A stretch of DNA of 40,824 nucleotides from Candidatus Yanofskyibacteriota bacterium (GTDB lineage: Bacteria > Patescibacteriota > Minisyncoccia > 2-02-FULL-40-12 > GWA2-44-9), in NCBI GenBank assembly GCA_016185505.1, contig JACPNL010000028.1, positions 1 to 40,824 on the forward strand. The letters run 5' to 3'. Numbering within the stretch: position 1 is the first letter of the stretch; every line of letters starts with the position of its first letter. Below, in pieces: positions 16,768 to 40,574 of this stretch. Both the position numbers and the translations under genes were made by a program. Below the pieces are notes generated by a model that saw only the letters and a program-made list of their open reading frames with translations, searched no databases and was not told where the DNA came from.

Positions 16768-17235
16768 ATGCGTAGGCCTGTAAAAAAACGAGCAGTTATT
16801 GATCCGGATGTTAAATATTCGGATGTTTTGGTTGCTAAATTTATAAATAAAATAATGAGAGACGGAAAACAGTCAATCGCGAGAAAAATAGTATATACAG
16901 CTCTTGAACTTTCGGAAAAACAAACCAAAAAACCGGCGCTGGAAGTATTTAAGAAAGCGATGGATAATGTTTCTCCGGCGGTTGAGTTGCGGTCAAAGAG
17001 AGTCGGTGGGGCCAACTATCAGGTTCCGGTAGAAGTCAGGCCGGAAAGGCGAATCGCGCTTGCCATTAGATGGATAGTGGATTCAGCGAGGTCTCAAAAA
17101 GGTAAACCGATGGCTGAAAAATTAGCCGGGGAATTTGTGAATGCATTTAACAATACCGGAGGCGCGATTAAGAAGAGGCAGGATGTGCAGAGAATGGCAG
17201 AGGCCAATAAGGCCTTCGCCCATTTTTCGTGGTAA
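16768..17235 (+). CDS. rpsG: Ribosomal protein uS7
   Basis: Small-subunit head protein that nucleates 3'-domain assembly. The 155-residue sequence has normal length and the family segments RRPVKKR, KFINKIMRDGKQSIARKIVY, LELRSKRVGG-like VELRSKRVGGANYQVPVEV and a C-terminal RMAEANKAFAHFSW. Starts at the edge of a family-A spacer. Confidence 0.97.
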   Translation: MRRPVKKRAVIDPDVKYSDVLVAKFINKIMRDGKQSIARKIVYTALELSEKQTKKPALEVFKKAMDNVSPAVELRSKRVGGANYQVPVEVRPERRIALAIRWIVDSARSQKGKPMAEKLAGEFVNAFNNTGGAIKKRQDVQRMAEANKAFAHFSW

Positions 17236-17435
17236 CGAAAAATGGGCAATTGACCTAATTTCTAATTGCTCTAATTATTCTAAATAAATCACAATGTCTA
17301 ATACTCAAATGACCAAAGAATACTTTTAGGCATTAGGTTATTAGGATTTCTTTAGGTCAACTCCGACGTTATCAGTCGGAGGGCCGACTGATAACGTCGG
17401 CCTTAGGTCAATTAGAATAATTAGGTTAATTTTTC
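17236..17435. repeat. Family-B spacer containing a perfect 17-bp hairpin
   Basis: Edges read ACCTAATTTCTAATTGCTC and the complementary GGTCAATTAGAATAATTAGG, the family-B pattern. Inserted within it, 17363-17379 pairs perfectly with 17384-17400 around AGGG (17 bp, 4-nt loop). The hairpin interrupts a TTTAGGTCAA unit that recurs on its far side as TTAGGTCAAT. Confidence 0.8.
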
Positions 17436-17492
17436 ATGTCCGACTATCCTATCCAAAAAATTAGAAACTTCGGAGTAATAGCCCACATTGAC
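17436..17492 (+). pseudogene. Orphan duplicate of the fusA 5' end
   Basis: ATG at 17436 opens 19 codons, MSDYPIQKIRNFGVIAHID, matching the start of the intact EF-G (MADYPINKIRNFGVIAHID) at 17 of 19 residues, but with different synonymous codons at most positions. It stops exactly where the foldback at 17493 begins, just before the GKTT of the P-loop. Bases after the foldback (GGGAAAGACAAAT) could be a degraded continuation of that P-loop. Reading on through the foldback gives a meaningless 59-residue ORF. It looks like a remnant of an older or foreign fusA. Confidence 0.8.
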
Positions 17493-17580
17493 GTCCCGAT
17501 TTTCTTCGCGCAAAGCGCGACTAGAAAATCGAGGATCCTCGATTTTGTAACCAAATCAGAGATTTGGACAAAATCGGGAC
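17493..17580. repeat. Cloverleaf-like foldback with GTCCCGATT termini
   Basis: An 11-bp perfect outer stem (17493-17503 with 17570-17580) encloses three arms: TCGCGC-aaa-GCGCGA (17506-17520), a 22-bp perfect palindrome centred on GGATCC (17525-17546) and CCAAATC-aga-GATTTGG (17551-17567). It abuts the fusA remnant and lies 16 bp before the intact fusA start. Confidence 0.88.
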
Positions 17581-17596
17581 GGGAAAGACAAATATT

Positions 17597-19693
17597 ATGG
17601 CAGATTATCCGATAAACAAAATCAGGAATTTTGGAGTGATTGCCCATATCGACGCAGGCAAAACGACAACCTCGGAGAGGATTCTTTTTTATACCGGAAT
17701 TTCTCATAAAATAGGCGAAGTTCATGAAGGCGAGGCGATAATGGACTGGATGGAGCAGGAGAGGGAGAGGGGTATTACCATTACCGCAGCGGCAACGACT
17801 GCTTACTGGGCTCCAGGCGATTCCAAAGAAGATAAATACAAACTCAACATAATAGACACTCCCGGACATATTGATTTTACCATTGAGGTCAAACGTTCTC
17901 TACGTGTTTTGGACGGAGCAGTTGTTGTCTTTGACGGCGTTGCCGGCGTGGAACCGCAATCGGAGACAAATTGGCGATATGCCGATGACTATAAAGTGCC
18001 CAGAATTTGTTTCATAAGTAAGCTTGACCGTTTGGGCGCCTCTTTTGAGCGTTCTTTTCAGTCAATTCTCGGACGGCTTTCGCCCTTTGCCGTTAAATTG
18101 CAAATACCGGACGGCCATGAGGACCAATTTAAGGGTATTGTTGATCTTTTAACCATGGAATATGTAACTTTTGAAGGCGCCAAAGGAGAGAAAGTTGTAA
18201 AAGGACCGCTCCCGGAGCATATGAAAGCTGAAGCCGAAAAAGAAAGGGCAATTACTATTGAAAAAATAGTGGAACAAGACGACCGGGCAATGGCGGAATA
18301 TCTTGAAGGAAAAGAGATTGGCGTGGATAAACTTCGAGATATCTTAAGGAAAGCAACCATAGAAAATAAAATTTTCCCTGTTTTCTGCGGTTCCGCTTTG
18401 AAAAATAAAGGCGTTCAGCTTGTTTTAGATGCTGTAGTGTATTATCTGCCGTCGCCTTTGGATATTCCGCCTGCCATGGGGATTTTTACCAAAACAGGAG
18501 AAGAAAAACCGGTTCCGGCAGATGAAAACGCTCCTTTTGCCGCTTTAGCGTTCAAGACCGCGACTGATCCTTTTGTCGGCTCTTTAACTTTCTTCAGAGT
18601 TTATTCAGGCAAGATTGCTTCAGGTTCTTATGTTTTGAATACAAGAAGCGGCCAGCAAGAACGGATAAGCCGTATTGTCCGACTTCACGCCAACCAAAGA
18701 GAAGAGGTCAAGGAAATATACGCGGGCAATATTGCCGCGACTGTCGGTTTGAAAGACACTAAAACAGGGGATACGCTGTGTGATCCTGCTAATCCGGTGA
18801 TTTTAGAAGGCATTGAAGTTCCGGAGCCGGTCATTTCCTTGAGAGTTGAACCGAAGACCAAAGCCGATCAGGAGAAAATGGGCATTGCTTTGAGGAAACT
18901 CTCTGACGAAGATCCGACTTTCAGAATTAAAACTGACACAGAAACTGCAGAGATGATCATATCCGGAATGGGAGAACTCCACTTGGAAATTATCGTTGAC
19001 AGAATGAGAAGAGAATTCGGGGTTGGCGTGAATGTCGGCCGCCCTCAAGTTGCCTATAAAGAAACCATCACCAACACAGCAGAAGCCGAAGGTAAATATA
19101 TCCGCCAGTCAGGGGGCCGTGGCCAGTACGGCCATGTCTGGATTAGGGTTGAACCGCTTGAGCGCAGCGCCGGTTTTGAATTTGTTAATGCTATCAGAGG
19201 GGGCGTGATCCCTGAAGAGTTTATTAACCCTTCCGAAAAAGGCGTACGCGAGGCCTTGGACAAAGGAGTTGTTGCCGGTTTTCCTATAGTTGATATAAAA
19301 GCCACGCTTTACGATGGTTCTTATCACGAAGTTGATTCTTCAGAGATCGCTTTTAAAATAGCCGCGTCAACCGCAATGCAAGAAGCCACCAGACGAGCAA
19401 AACCGATACTGCTTGAACCGATAATGAAGGTGGAGATAATAATGCCTGATAATTTTCTGGGAGAAGTCACCGGTGACTTGGCATCAAGGCGCGGTCAGAT
19501 ATTAAGCATAAATGACAGGAGCCCCTTGAATTTGAAGGTTGTTGACTCGCGTGTGCCGCTGTCGGAAATGTTTGGATATGCCACATCTGTGCGGTCCTTG
19601 ACCGAAGGCCGGGGGACGTTTAATATGGAGTTCAGCAGATATGAAGTTGTGCCGCAGAATATTGCGGAATTGATAAAAGAGGGTAAGAAATAA
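17597..19693 (+). CDS. fusA: Elongation factor G
   Basis: Ribosomal translocase GTPase, 698 residues, full length. G-domain motifs: AHIDAGKTT (P-loop), RGITITAAA, DTPGHIDF, and G4 read as ISKLDR, where the usual Asn of NKxD is Ser. Domain II-V landmarks: FVGSLTFFRVYSGK, GMGELHLEII, GGRGQYGHVWI, MFGYATSVRSLTEGRG. The ATG at 17597 matches the family start; longer in-frame reading from 17564 runs through foldback sequence. Spacing between its start and the upstream remnant suggests this copy replaced or duplicated an earlier 5' end. Confidence 0.97.
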   Translation: MADYPINKIRNFGVIAHIDAGKTTTSERILFYTGISHKIGEVHEGEAIMDWMEQERERGITITAAATTAYWAPGDSKEDKYKLNIIDTPGHIDFTIEVKRSLRVLDGAVVVFDGVAGVEPQSETNWRYADDYKVPRICFISKLDRLGASFERSFQSILGRLSPFAVKLQIPDGHEDQFKGIVDLLTMEYVTFEGAKGEKVVKGPLPEHMKAEAEKERAITIEKIVEQDDRAMAEYLEGKEIGVDKLRDILRKATIENKIFPVFCGSALKNKGVQLVLDAVVYYLPSPLDIPPAMGIFTKTGEEKPVPADENAPFAALAFKTATDPFVGSLTFFRVYSGKIASGSYVLNTRSGQQERISRIVRLHANQREEVKEIYAGNIAATVGLKDTKTGDTLCDPANPVILEGIEVPEPVISLRVEPKTKADQEKMGIALRKLSDEDPTFRIKTDTETAEMIISGMGELHLEIIVDRMRREFGVGVNVGRPQVAYKETITNTAEAEGKYIRQSGGRGQYGHVWIRVEPLERSAGFEFVNAIRGGVIPEEFINPSEKGVREALDKGVVAGFPIVDIKATLYDGSYHEVDSSEIAFKIAASTAMQEATRRAKPILLEPIMKVEIIMPDNFLGEVTGDLASRRGQILSINDRSPLNLKVVDSRVPLSEMFGYATSVRSLTEGRGTFNMEFSRYEVVPQNIAELIKEGKK

Positions 19694-19812: not shown

Positions 19813-20148
19813 GTGGATACCAACGAACTAAAAAAACTACTGAAAGGTTCAACCGCCGTTTTGATATTGGAAGATGGCGAACCGTCGTTCGTAATACTCG
19901 GCTATGACGCGTACAAAAGCCTTTTATCCGACCAAGAAAAGGAAATTAAAATTAATCATCCCGCTGAAGCTCAACCGAGACCGGCCGAGAACGAGAGACA
20001 AATTTCTAACGGTGTAGAGAATAAATTCCAACATCGCATAGGCGAGAAAGAGGCGGAGATGTTGGAGAAGATAAACAAACAGATACTTGCCCTTAAAGGT
20101 GATATAGAGAAGGAAGAAAAGGGCGCAGAGATATCCGCAGTTGACTAA
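19813..20148 (+). CDS. Hypothetical protein between fusA and tuf, weakly Phd-like
   Basis: A 111-residue protein starting at GTG 19813. The N-terminal part LKKLLKGSTAVLILEDGEPSFV(I)LGYDAYKSLL resembles the strand-helix core of Phd/YefM antitoxins (a 'value-from-neighbour, GxPxxVLxxYxxY' pattern). The rest is a charged linker and a Lys/Glu-rich coiled-coil helix (about 75-103). No toxin gene is beside it. It may be a co-opted or orphan antitoxin fold; confidence in a function is low, in a real gene good. Confidence 0.6.
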   Translation: MDTNELKKLLKGSTAVLILEDGEPSFVILGYDAYKSLLSDQEKEIKINHPAEAQPRPAENERQISNGVENKFQHRIGEKEAEMLEKINKQILALKGDIEKEEKGAEISAVD

Positions 20149-20272
20149 AATAGCGGTTTGGATTAGAATAGATATTACTATAAAAATTAAATAAGCGACC
20201 AAGAAACAAGCGACAAGCGACCAAGAAAACTACTTGATCCCCGTTCCTTGTTGCTTGTCTCTAGATCAAAAA

Positions 20273-21475
20273 ATGGCGGGAAAATTTGAAAGAACAAAGC
20301 CGCACATGAATGTCGGCACAATCGGTCACGTTGACCACGGTAAAACCACTCTAACAGCGGCTATTTTACATACAGCCAACCTGTTTTCTGACGAGGGTTA
20401 CAGCGCTAGGGTTGAAGCAGTCGATCAGATTGACAATGCTCCAGAGGAGAAAGCGAGAGGAATCACTATCGCTCTGCACCACTCCGAATACGAGACGCCA
20501 AAAAGGCATTATGCTCACGTTGACGCTCCCGGTCACCAGGATTATATCAAAAATATGATTACCGGCGCCGCGCAGAGGGACGGAGCCGTATTGGTTGTTG
20601 CCGCTACCGACGGTCCAATGCCCCAGACAAGAGAGCACATTCTTTTGGCGAGGCAAGTGGGTTTGCCATCGTTGATAGTATTTTTGAACAAGGTTGACCA
20701 GGTTGATGATCCTGAAATGCTGGACTTGGTTGAGGCGGAAATAAGAGAACTCTTGAGCAAGTATCAATACGACGGAGAAAAAACACCCGTTATACGCGGT
20801 TCAGGACTAAAGACCTTAGAAGCGAAGACAAAGGATGACGCGGCCGCTAAACCGGTCAAAGAACTGCTTGATGCTCTCGATACTTATTTTGCCGACCCGG
20901 TTCGCGAGACCGACAAGCCATTTCTTATGCCTATCGAGGATATCTTCTCTATTGAAGGACGAGGGACTGTTGTCACAGGAAGGATTGAAAGAGGAAAAGT
21001 TAAATTAAATGAAGAAGTTGAGATAGTTGGCATCAAACCGACGTCTAAGACAGTTGTTACCGGCATAGAAATGTTCAATAAACAGCTTGATGAAGGTATG
21101 GCTGGGGATAATGCCGGTCTCTTGCTTAGAGGTACTAAAAAAGAGGATATCGAGCGAGGGCAGGTTCTTGCCAAACCCGGCTCCATAACTCCTCATACCG
21201 AATTTGAAGCCGAGATATATGTTTTGACTAAAGAAGAGGGCGGCAGACACACCCCGTTCTTCAAGGGCTATAAACCGCAGTTCTATTTCCGAACAACGGA
21301 CGTAACCGGAGAGGTAATGCTACCGGAGGGCACGGAGATGGTAATGCCCGGCGACACCATTAATTTGAAAGTTAAGCTTATTGCTCCTATTGCTATGGAA
21401 GAAAAGCAGAGGTTTGCTATCCGAGAGGGAGGTAAAACCGTCGGCGCAGGGGTAGTAACGAAGGTGACGGCTTAA
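20273..21475 (+). CDS. tuf: Elongation factor Tu
   Basis: Delivers aminoacyl-tRNA to the ribosome. 400 residues, full length: [64 protein letters not shown], then [20 protein letters not shown] and C-terminal [13 protein letters not shown]. The ATG at 20273 matches the family start; an upstream in-frame TTG at 20234 adds an unrelated 13 residues. The preceding gap (20185-20265) holds a partly self-complementary CAAGCGACAAG/CTTGTTGCTTG repeat. Confidence 0.98.
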
Positions 21476-23042: not shown

Positions 23043-23654
23043 ATGAAGTTTATCCTAGGAAAAAAATTAGGAATGTCCCAGATATTTAACGAGGATGGCG
23101 CCGTAATACCTGTTACGGTCATTGAAGCGGAGCCGAATGTTGTTACCCAGGTAAAGACGAAGGACAAAGACGGGTACGAAGCAGTGCAAGTCAAAAGTCA
23201 AAAGTCAAAAGGTAAAAATCAGAAGAAAGAATTCAAAATCGACCAACAACCAACAACCAACAACCAACAACCAAATGTTGGGGACAAAATTGACGTATCA
23301 GTTTTTTCTGAAGGCGATATTGTAAAAGTCAGCGGAGTGTCGAAAGGAAAGGGTTTTGCCGGCGTGATGAAGAGGCATAATTTTTCAGGGATGCCTTTTA
23401 GCCACGGACATCATCATGTTGCCAGACACGGCGGTTCTATCGGGCAGAGATTTCCCCAGCATACTTTGAAAGGCATGAGAATGGCGGGGCGTATGGGCGG
23501 CGTGAAAGCAACTACGCGAGGATTGAAAGTTGTAAAAGTCGACGCGGAGAATAATCTGATCGCGGTTAAGGGCGCAGTGCCGGGGAATAAGGGAGGACTG
23601 CTTGCGATACAATCACAAGATAAATCAAATATTAAAAATCAAAAATCAAAATGA
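23043..23654 (+). CDS. rplC: Ribosomal protein uL3, with repeat-derived linker and tail
   Basis: Early-assembly large-subunit protein, 203 residues. Core motifs: ILGKKLGMSQIFNEDG, KGKGFAGVMKRHNF, HGHHHVARHGGSIGQRFPQ, GMRMAGRMGG. It has a real Shine-Dalgarno site (TAGGAGG, 5 nt from ATG), rare in this cluster. Between beta strands, residues 51-78 form a Lys/Gln/Asn-rich insertion (DQQPTTNNQQP at 67-77) encoded by a CAACAAC tandem repeat. The C-terminal DKSNIKNQKSK is encoded by the edge of the family-A spacer, so the gene has run into the repeat. Confidence 0.96.
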   Translation: MKFILGKKLGMSQIFNEDGAVIPVTVIEAEPNVVTQVKTKDKDGYEAVQVKSQKSKGKNQKKEFKIDQQPTTNNQQPNVGDKIDVSVFSEGDIVKVSGVSKGKGFAGVMKRHNFSGMPFSHGHHHVARHGGSIGQRFPQHTLKGMRMAGRMGGVKATTRGLKVVKVDAENNLIAVKGAVPGNKGGLLAIQSQDKSNIKNQKSK

Positions 23655-23721
23655 CAAATCAAAATTCAAAAATTTTTTATTTTTAATCTGTGTTTTTGGT
23701 ATTTGATATTTAATTTTTAAT
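23616..23721. repeat. Family-A spacer (rplC-rplD), overlapping the rplC tail
   Basis: Starts inside rplC (AAATCAAATATTAAAAATC) and ends TTTGATATTTAATTTTTAAT at the rplD ATG. A shorter version without the GATGACAG core. Confidence 0.85.
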
Positions 23722-24351
23722 ATGGAAGTTGTTTTATACAATCAAAGCGCCGAGAACATAGGAAATGTCGAACTGCCTGACTCTGTGTTTGCCGTTCCTT
23801 CAAACAACGACCTGCTCCATCAGGTTGTCTCATCGTTGATGGCCAACAAGAGACAGGTCATAGCTCATGCCAAAACAAGGTCGGAGGTTCGAGGCGGCGG
23901 CAAAAAGCCCTGGCGGCAAAAGGGCACAGGCAGGTCAAGACACGGGTCCATACGGTCACCCATATGGAAAGGCGGAGGAGTGACATTCGGTCCGACAAAA
24001 GAAGTTAATTTTAAGAAAAAGATCGGAAAAAAGACGGCACGCAAAGCGCTACTTGTCGCATTGAGCGAGAAGGCAAGAAGCAACGGTATTGTTGTTGTTG
24101 ATGAAATAAAATTGAACGGCCCCAAAACAAAAGAAGCTGCCAACATCCTTAAATCATTTAATAATAATTTAAACAGAACGGGGAGTATGCTAATAATAAC
24201 TCCCTCAACGGATAAGGACTTGTACAGAGCAACAAAGAATATACAGAAAGTAGGAGTGATCGAGGCGAGGAACCTGAATACTTTGGAGATTCTTTCGCAC
24301 AAAAATATAATGATTTTCAAGGATGTTTTGGGCGTATTGGTTAATAAATAA
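23722..24351 (+). CDS. rplD: Ribosomal protein uL4
   Basis: Large-subunit exit-tunnel protein and, in many bacteria, S10-operon autoregulator. 209 residues: MEVVLYNQ, AKTRSEVRGGGKKPWRQKGTGRSRHGS, SPIWKGGGVTFGP, and the C-terminal Rossmann-like part ending VLGVLVNK. Confidence 0.97.
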   Translation: MEVVLYNQSAENIGNVELPDSVFAVPSNNDLLHQVVSSLMANKRQVIAHAKTRSEVRGGGKKPWRQKGTGRSRHGSIRSPIWKGGGVTFGPTKEVNFKKKIGKKTARKALLVALSEKARSNGIVVVDEIKLNGPKTKEAANILKSFNNNLNRTGSMLIITPSTDKDLYRATKNIQKVGVIEARNLNTLEILSHKNIMIFKDVLGVLVNK

Positions 24352-38011: not shown

Positions 38012-38273
38012 ATTAGACCTGTTGCTTATTAATTTTCGTAACGAAAGTCCCAAATTTTGAGACGCTCGGAGAAGGTTCACGGTGCTTTAGCCCGGGAATC
38101 TCTGTAGAAGTTATTGAAATTTTTAAGGAATAGTTGATGCTATTTCGAGAAAATTTCAATAATCTTATGGCCAAAATTTGGGACTTGTCCCGATTGCGAA
38201 GCAACCGAGGATCCTCGATATTTGCATAGCAAATATCGGGACAGTAGAAAGGTTATTAAGCAACAGGTCTAAT
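38012..38273. repeat. Large nested foldback between map and the 38277 gene
   Basis: Outer stem 38012-38028/38257-38273 (17 bp perfect). Inside: TTTCG-taa-CGAAA; a 15-bp perfect stem 38045-38059/38172-38186 that itself encloses a 13-bp perfect stem 38111-38123/38150-38162; and a three-arm GTCCCGAT element (38187-38242) with TTGC-gaa-GCAA, CGAGGATCCTCG and ATATTTGC-ata-GCAAATAT. The right edge ends 3 bp before the next ATG. A TATAAT lies at 38002. Confidence 0.85.
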
Positions 38274-39676: not shown

Positions 39677-40477
39677 ATGGATAACCAACAATCACAGCAA
39701 CTGAATAATCAGGAACAAGAATTTCAGTCCGCTTCGCCTCAAGGCGGGCCATTGCAAGCACACCAACCTGACAAAAAGATTTGGATTTATGTTTTAGTAG
39801 GCCTTGTCATCGCCGGCGGAGCATATGGGTTTTATGTCTGGCAAAAAGGAGGATTATTTCCAGCTTTGCCAACGCCGGATTCGACAAGCTCACCGCAAGC
39901 GACCGCCAACCCTACCCTGAACGAAGTCGAAGGGTGGCAAACCTATCGTAATGAAGAGTATGGGTTTGAGCTTAGGTATCCGGGGGATTTTTCTTACCGA
40001 GAATCATCTCCAGAATTTACCTCTTTTGATAAAAGCGAGAAGATTTCTGGTCAATGTGATTCGGGGATAGGATATCCAAGATGCGGTATTAACGATGGGA
40101 TATTAAAGAGGACAGACTACCCTGATGTAAATAAAATAGTAGAGATTATACCATTAAGTTCAGATGCCAAACTCTCAGAAACAGAGAAGGTTTTACTTGG
40201 AAATAATTATTTTACAAAAGTTAAACGAATTTCTTCCTGGGGTACTGACCTATTTTATTTCCTTGATGATAAAGGTGATAAAGGATTAATTTATAGTTTT
40301 TTTGTATTAGATAGCTATGAAACAATAGCAGATCAAATCCTCTCCACGTTTAGGTTTTTGGAACCGGAGGTTTGTATACAAGTCATCACACCGGCCCGCA
40401 ATCCGCAAACCGGCGAAGTGCGTGATTTTCCAACTCCCTGCGATGTGCCGGAAGGGTGGTCCCGATTATCCCCATAG
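39677..40477 (+). CDS. Membrane-anchored extracytoplasmic protein
   Basis: A 266-residue protein: Gln/Asn-rich cytoplasmic start (1-33), one membrane span (about 36-56, IYVLVGLVIAGGAYGFYVW), a Pro/Ser/Thr linker, then a domain beginning WQTYRNEEYGFELRYPGDF, the PsbP-like start common in CPR surface proteins, and a Cys-containing tail (CIQVITPARNPQTGEVRDF...CDVPEGW). Part of the linker (NPTLNEVEG) is encoded by a small ACCCT...AGGGT inverted repeat (39914-39935). The last residues SRLSP come from the adjoining foldback. Confidence 0.75.
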   Translation: MDNQQSQQLNNQEQEFQSASPQGGPLQAHQPDKKIWIYVLVGLVIAGGAYGFYVWQKGGLFPALPTPDSTSSPQATANPTLNEVEGWQTYRNEEYGFELRYPGDFSYRESSPEFTSFDKSEKISGQCDSGIGYPRCGINDGILKRTDYPDVNKIVEIIPLSSDAKLSETEKVLLGNNYFTKVKRISSWGTDLFYFLDDKGDKGLIYSFFVLDSYETIADQILSTFRFLEPEVCIQVITPARNPQTGEVRDFPTPCDVPEGWSRLSP

Positions 40478-40574
40478 GAACTATGGTTGGATAATCGAGG
40501 ATCCTCGATTTTGCTCCGATTGCTTTGCAATCGAGAGTCCTTGATTCCTTTGGAATCGGGATACAAAATCGGGA
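40460..40574. repeat. Four-arm foldback with TCCCGATT termini
   Basis: Outer TCCCGATT/AATCGGGA (40460-40467/40567-40574). Arms: GATTATCC/GGATAATC with tip CCATAG-gaa-CTATGG (40464-40496), a GGATCC-centred palindrome (40493-40510), CGATTGC-ttt-GCAATCG (40517-40533) and GATTCC-ttt-GGAATC (40543-40557). Overlaps the 3' end of the preceding gene. Confidence 0.85.

Follow-up and report, generated by a model that had tools for sequence, protein, structure and literature searches.

In the genome G000, from an uncultured ultra-small bacterium, an 86-bp palindromic element, here called E, splits codons 1–23 of an older start of fusA, and a complete fusA start lies within 17 bp after the element, encoding the same amino acids in other codons. 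The window analysed, 40,824 nt in length, is the entire contig G000:C26 of a 681-kb genome that is 95% complete. The arrangement recurs, with 17 places found in 10 Patescibacteria genomes from 5 families. At each, a gene end or tRNA is present twice, once interrupted by E and once complete, the complete copy lying next to E or in one of its arms. Our preferred reading, to which we give a probability of about 55%, is that E breaks a gene near its end, that a second (usually foreign, orthologous) copy restores the gene, and that the divergence between the two copies blocks loss of E by recombination.

Short palindromic repeats are usually thought to persist only where they are harmless. E is found within tRNAs and essential genes, in some cases at one identical base in distantly related genomes, and the part that it destroys is present a second time alongside. 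It therefore presents a testable case of palindromic DNA driving orthologue replacement of essential gene ends in streamlined genomes; the split sites would be dated-looking scars left by recombination between species of Patescibacteria, and would offer a natural counterpart to engineered cleave-and-rescue systems.

An older fusA start ahead of the intact gene

The region around the split start is organized as follows (window coordinates).

16768–17235, + strand: rpsG (S7), the next gene upstream in the str operon (ORF; tblastn matches to relatives)
17257–17434, no strand: AT-rich foldback repeat, other than E, between rpsG and the relic (repeat search)
17436–17493, + strand: left part of the relic, codons 1–19 and the first base of codon 20 of the older fusA (translation)
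17494–17579, no strand: element E, 86 bp, TCCCGATTTT..AAAATCGAGGATCCTCGATTTT..AAAATCGGGA (39 cores in the genome, conserved two-hairpin structure)
17580–17590, + strand: right part of the relic, CGGGAAAGACA, the rest of codon 20 and codons 21–23 (A-G-K-T) (sequence; same-base feature in G296 and G211)
17591–17596, + strand: six-base spacer AATATT, from the relic to the intact start codon (sequence)
17597–19693, + strand: intact fusA (EF-G, 698 aa), the restored gene (95% amino acid identity to G002, full length, no stops)

The peptide encoded by 17436–17492, MSDYPIQKIRNFGVIAHID, is identical at 17 of 19 residues to the N-terminus that intact fusA encodes from 17597 onwards. At the nucleotide level 42 of 57 positions are identical; of the 15 differences, 13 fall at third positions, and a different codon is used for 11 of the 17 residues in common. 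The sequence-only reading had taken these 19 codons for a genuine older fusA start and not a recent tandem copy, and both points hold, since the codon differences are too many for recent tandem duplication of the fusA start. Over its 23 codons, the relic shares 58 of 69 nucleotides with the fusA of two other genomes of the family (G019 and G024), against 50 of 69 with its own fusA; being nearer to the fusA starts of other genomes than to its own, it is an ordinary fusA allele rather than a recent copy.

The foldback at 17494 that the same reading had called is real (RNA fold z = −7.6), with a left hairpin at 17494–17535 and a right hairpin at 17538–17578. The relic had been thought to end there, which proved wrong: GACG, ending at 17493, joined to CGGGAAAGACA behind E reads D-A-G-K-T in frame and is followed by AATATT and the intact ATG. 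The bases after the foldback are thus the lost P-loop, as had been proposed. This continuation has about 7.5 specified bases, and we estimate its chance occurrence at roughly 3 × 10−5. Leaving out the 86 bp gives MSDYPIQKIRNFGVIAHIDAGKT, then six bases, then the ATG of intact fusA; the restored frame bears out the earlier suggestion that the foldback inserted into an older fusA start, and the insertion was made without target duplication.

The AT-rich foldback between rpsG and the relic (AATTGACCTAATT..) has arms at 17264–17283 and 17412–17431 and an inner 17-bp palindrome at 17363–17400. About 25–30 other places in the genome match its right arm alone, and in G030 (L039), a genome of another family, the fusA start directly adjoins a similar repeat.

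E is a dispersed element with two hairpins

That the foldback is a dispersed element, recurring at many genes and tRNAs, had escaped the sequence-only reading. Its core, ATCGAGGATCCTCGAT, has 39 matches in the 681-kb genome with at most two mismatches, and the reversed-pattern control has 0. Aligned copies share the layout TCCCGAT-hairpin-ATCGAGGATCCTCGAT-hairpin-ATCGGGA, each hairpin having 9 + 6 bp, a 2-nt bulge and mostly a 3-nt loop. Arm sequences vary while pairing is kept: the stems comprise 35 pairs, 17 of them with changes on both sides, and the hairpins are, on the strength of this alignment, maintained by compensatory change. The exact core is present at least once in 18 of 58 relatives, and E is much rarer in most relatives than in G000 (28 exact cores in G000, followed by 10 in G034 and 9 in G007). 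A search of Rfam gave no match above gathering score; the matches below threshold are chance ones, and a known RNA was rejected.

Two further copies lie in the window, at 38188–38241 and 40460–40574. The latter has an E-like element nested in its right arm and sits in the last codons of an ORF (..PEGW, then E, then ETI and the stop). In a genome of another family, a copy of E lies in the rpsG–fusA spacer, inside another foldback and without a fusA relic (L122, G031:C1 20168).

E splits other genes and tRNAs

The 17 places comprise fusA (3), the start of tpiA (4), the 3′ end of a nuclease-like gene (2), trxB (1), rplK (1) and tRNAs (6). In fusA, the split falls at an identical base (GAY-G followed by E) in three families, represented by G000, G296 and G211. 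A pattern search through 384 genomes of the class found E in the EF-G P-loop in these three only; in G296 and G211, which belong to two further families, the relic, E at the identical base and the P-loop codons behind E are again followed by a complete fusA start. The tpiA start is split at an identical base in four genomes (G000, G007, G031 and G238), the nuclease-like 3′ end at the same base in G000 and G007, and further coding cases were found in trxB of G021 and rplK of G027.

Within G000, comparison of the flanks of every E copy yielded two coding cases besides fusA, namely tpiA and the nuclease 3′ end (ENKYWLDKI on both sides). Against a null of 250 mismatched E flanks (mean 23, maximum 44), the fusA pair scored 92 and the other two pairs 53 and 42; the tpiA score alone lies within the null, but the tpiA relic continues across E and recurs elsewhere. 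We also scanned 320 kb of G000 (14 stretches and the window) for short direct repeats whose translations are similar and whose third codon positions differ. Two pairs were conspicuous, those of fusA and of the nuclease gene; in each the copies flank E, and the fusA pair was the strongest recoded short-range direct repeat. Other matches were weak or, in our reading, internal repeats of proteins; a reversed-sequence control gave three matches.

Three E copies of G000 lie inside tRNA genes, each with an intact tRNA in one arm. When E is left out, canonical tRNA-Lys(CTT) and tRNA-Glu(CTC) genes result, and their anticodons match those of the tRNAs held within E; the third case lies beside tRNA-Thr(CGT), and its old gene is not typable. 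The other genomes contribute tRNA-Thr(TGT) in G031, tRNA-Ser(GGA) in G011 and tRNA-Ala in G016. Omission of E again restores canonical genes for tRNA-Thr(TGT) and tRNA-Ser(GGA), whose anticodons equal those of the intact tRNAs in the E arms, and the old tRNA-Ala gene is reduced to its 5′ half. The anticodon inside E is therefore that of the interrupted tRNA in 4 of 4 typable pairs.

Restoring tRNA copies sit within an arm of E, and restoring copies of protein genes beside it. In all 17 cases E lies near the end of the relic, and one end of the complete copy coincides with the gene boundary, or falls within about 12 bases of it, in the clear cases. Such recurrence reflects a repeating evolutionary process, not a one-off accident. 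The split tRNA-Lys (L097, G000:C7, around 17969) has also been struck a second time, by a 51-bp foldback of a different family in its D-loop. One candidate gene duplicate, at L058, was rejected as two copies of tRNA-Glu.

Source of the restoring copy

Across the 125 codons of the 11 coding pairs, 109 residues are shared, and for 66 of them the two copies use different codons; differences at first, second and third codon positions number 20, 6 and 73. So few second-position changes fit poorly with a relic that drifted after self-duplication, for which far more would be expected. Judged from these pairs, most intact copies are synonymously diverged from the relic. The G238 tpiA pair is identical, and may be young or derived from a near relative.

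Two cases point to a donor. Over 75 nt, the tRNA-Lys held in E has 100% identity with the tRNA-Lys of G020, a genome of another genus, where the match sits behind tRNA-Arg and is thus syntenic with the G000 locus; the split tRNA-Lys is closest to the same-genus G002 (89%). In G007, codons 1–30 of tpiA match G016 best (0.82 nucleotide identity, against 0.68–0.71 for genus mates), and from codon 31 onwards the own-genus G024 is usually the best match, so that only the first ~30 codons of this gene look foreign. In these cases, the restoring piece appears short and foreign and the gene body native.

For fusA, comparison with relatives revealed neither the donor nor a clean breakpoint in identity along the gene. 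The proposal that the older fusA had been replaced by a diverged copy is retained for the 5′ end and not supported for the gene as a whole: the fusA body is native to the clade, and fusA, rpsL, rpsG and tuf all rank G002, G019 and G001 closest, which speaks against a swap of the whole of fusA for a distant allele. A candidate sharp mosaic breakpoint within fusA was likewise discarded, the drop in identity at codons 61–120 also being present between relatives, with a variable loop there.

Proposed mechanism and rival explanations

In the reading that we favour, E would be palindromic, REPIN-like and non-autonomous, and a presumed enzyme acting in trans would probably move it as single-stranded DNA. 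After an insertion into a tRNA or close to the end of an important gene, the line would survive only if a second copy restored the gene. That copy would usually be orthologous DNA of a related species, presumably acquired by natural transformation, and would be joined on one side by homologous recombination within the gene body and on the other, a few bases from E, by an illegitimate junction. Natural transformation is established in Saccharibacteria, members of the Patescibacteria, and conservation of com genes extends across the CPR (PMC10633639). Were the restoring copy identical to the relic, direct-repeat recombination would remove E; persisting cases would therefore be mostly diverged ones, which would explain the recoding.

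This mechanism has difficulties of its own. Insertion of E into fusA would be lethal before rescue, so rescue would have to be near-simultaneous, or E and the patch would have to arrive together. Repeated insertion at exactly the same base calls for a target specificity, of which we could define only a G before E. The placement of a replacement tRNA inside an arm of E is not fully explained by a patch beside E, nor by a single origin followed by spread. A more far-reaching proposal, which we regard as doubtful, is that E is a natural self-rescuing mobile element: its homing sites would be fixed bases within conserved parts of essential genes (the EF-G P-loop, the A-N-W-K motif of TIM and tRNA D-stems), where it would install or bring a recoded copy of the destroyed stretch. 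That copy would protect E from recombinational removal, and E would spread among Patescibacteria species by DNA uptake.

The main rival to insertion followed by rescue is a single origin at each site, after which E and the restoring copy spread between species by homologous recombination. The left crossover would fall in the recipient's own gene start, which would thereby become a fresh relic, and the right one within the body of the gene. We hold this to be unlikely on balance, although it accounts for the identical base in fusA (three families) and in tpiA (four genomes) without repeated targeting, as well as for native relics, foreign patches and undecayed relics, and it removes the lethal intermediate; in G011, moreover, E lies directly before tpiA without a relic. 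A shared history per site is nevertheless not visible: similarity between E copies is no greater for one site compared across genomes than for different sites, and the fusA E of G000 resembles the tpiA E of G000 and the rplK E of G027 at least as much as the fusA E of other families. Nesting of tRNA replacements in an E arm also fits spread poorly. Considerably less probable is a chance layering of events, in which a tandem relic remained from an incomplete allele replacement and E subsequently inserted into this DNA, free of constraint, the two events being causally unconnected. E is indeed common between genes, and homology-facilitated illegitimate recombination is known to form one junction by homology and the other illegitimately (PMC3240628). 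This explanation is already very unlikely given that no E-free recoded pair at a gene end was found in the 320 kb of G000 scanned, against 6 of 39 E copies of G000 sitting in a relic, and that the same base was struck in three families.

We attach even less weight to a functional leader, in which the remnant ORF and hairpins would regulate fusA in the manner of an attenuator with a leader peptide. A short ORF and a strong hairpin do precede the gene, with a similar layout before tpiA and trxB; conservation of such a leader is contradicted by the absence of the relic before fusA in 27 other genomes of the family and at 80 further fusA loci, the 3′-end and tRNA cases cannot be leaders, and the Rfam result described above gives no support. 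Scarcely credible, too, is an assembly chimera joining two strains at a repeat, which the sequence-only reading had named as a possible artefact at 17493 and which a metagenome-style, multi-contig genome with a repeated E might invite. It is at odds with the in-frame relic on the far side of E, with split tRNA halves that fit together once E is left out, and with the same junction in independent genomes, including two of other families; the other E copy closest to that in fusA, furthermore, is 96% identical over only 53 bp.

Comparison with known systems

E is REPIN-like and has traits in common with CGTC-tagged repeats and Rickettsia palindromic elements, and it does not fully match the defining features of any of them. 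In the openly accessible literature (subscription journals being outside this scope), we found no earlier description of a palindromic element tied to a restoring gene copy.

The CGTC-tagged palindromic repeats, which include RPE-4 and RPE-6 of Rickettsia and dRS3 of Neisseria, are listed from five phyla, Patescibacteria not among them (PMC3733652). Like these, E has a GTCCCG-like end, forms dimers, lacks a dedicated adjacent transposase and occurs in coding regions. It differs in its stem, which in the CGTC-tagged repeats is 8–9 bp with a loop of 4–5 and a CCA tail, and probably in its terminus: those repeats carry CGTC (or TGTC, CCTC) at the repeat end, whereas the bases before the TCCCGA of E vary among copies and, by excision analysis, belong to the target in split genes, so that E itself would lack the tag. 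Rickettsia palindromic elements are in-frame insertions in genes (Ogata et al. 2000, as reported in PMC10969869), and one E is likewise an in-frame insertion of 28 codons within an intact nuclease-like ORF (L110, 783–866). The Rickettsia elements lie predominantly in frame in protein genes, whereas most E copies are intergenic or gene-breaking; unlike the Rickettsia elements, E breaks the gene in the split cases and a second copy takes over.

With elements mobilized by HUH/Y1 enzymes (IS200/IS605-type), E shares the lack of target duplication and hairpin ends. Phages and ICEs integrate in tRNA genes or gene ends and restore the target with a recoded end. E resembles such integrative elements in that the target is interrupted and function is restored by a recoded end, but at ~86 bp it encodes nothing and has no identical att-like core at its flanks. 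The combination of one homologous and one illegitimate junction recalls homology-facilitated illegitimate recombination in transformation (PMC3240628), but no link of that process to a palindromic element, or to a single base within a gene, is known.

REPINs are short, non-autonomous inverted hairpin dimers present in tens of copies, with compensatory stem changes (PMC3116915). E, multicopy and dispersed, is likewise an inverted hairpin dimer with two-sided stem changes; REPINs are described as extragenic, however, whereas E often lies within genes and tRNAs, in association with a second gene copy. As in REPIN/REP systems with their RAYTs, G000 has two Y1 transposase genes of RAYT size, but E was found next to neither, each being flanked by palindromes of its own that differ from E. 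The second of these genes (L213, G000:C29, around 23604–23840) has palindromes CCTGTGGAGGGCGGCCCTCCACAGG at its flanks and adjoins the RNase P RNA gene, in which a suspected insertion proved to be the normal hairpin region of that RNA. The first (L214, G000:C3, around 20044–20301) lies between palindromes CCTGTGGATAAACGACTT..AAGTCGTTTATCCACAGG that contain a DnaA-box-like TTATCCACA. Seven E copies (for example, L048, L049 and L050) are inserted in the middle of this same palindrome.
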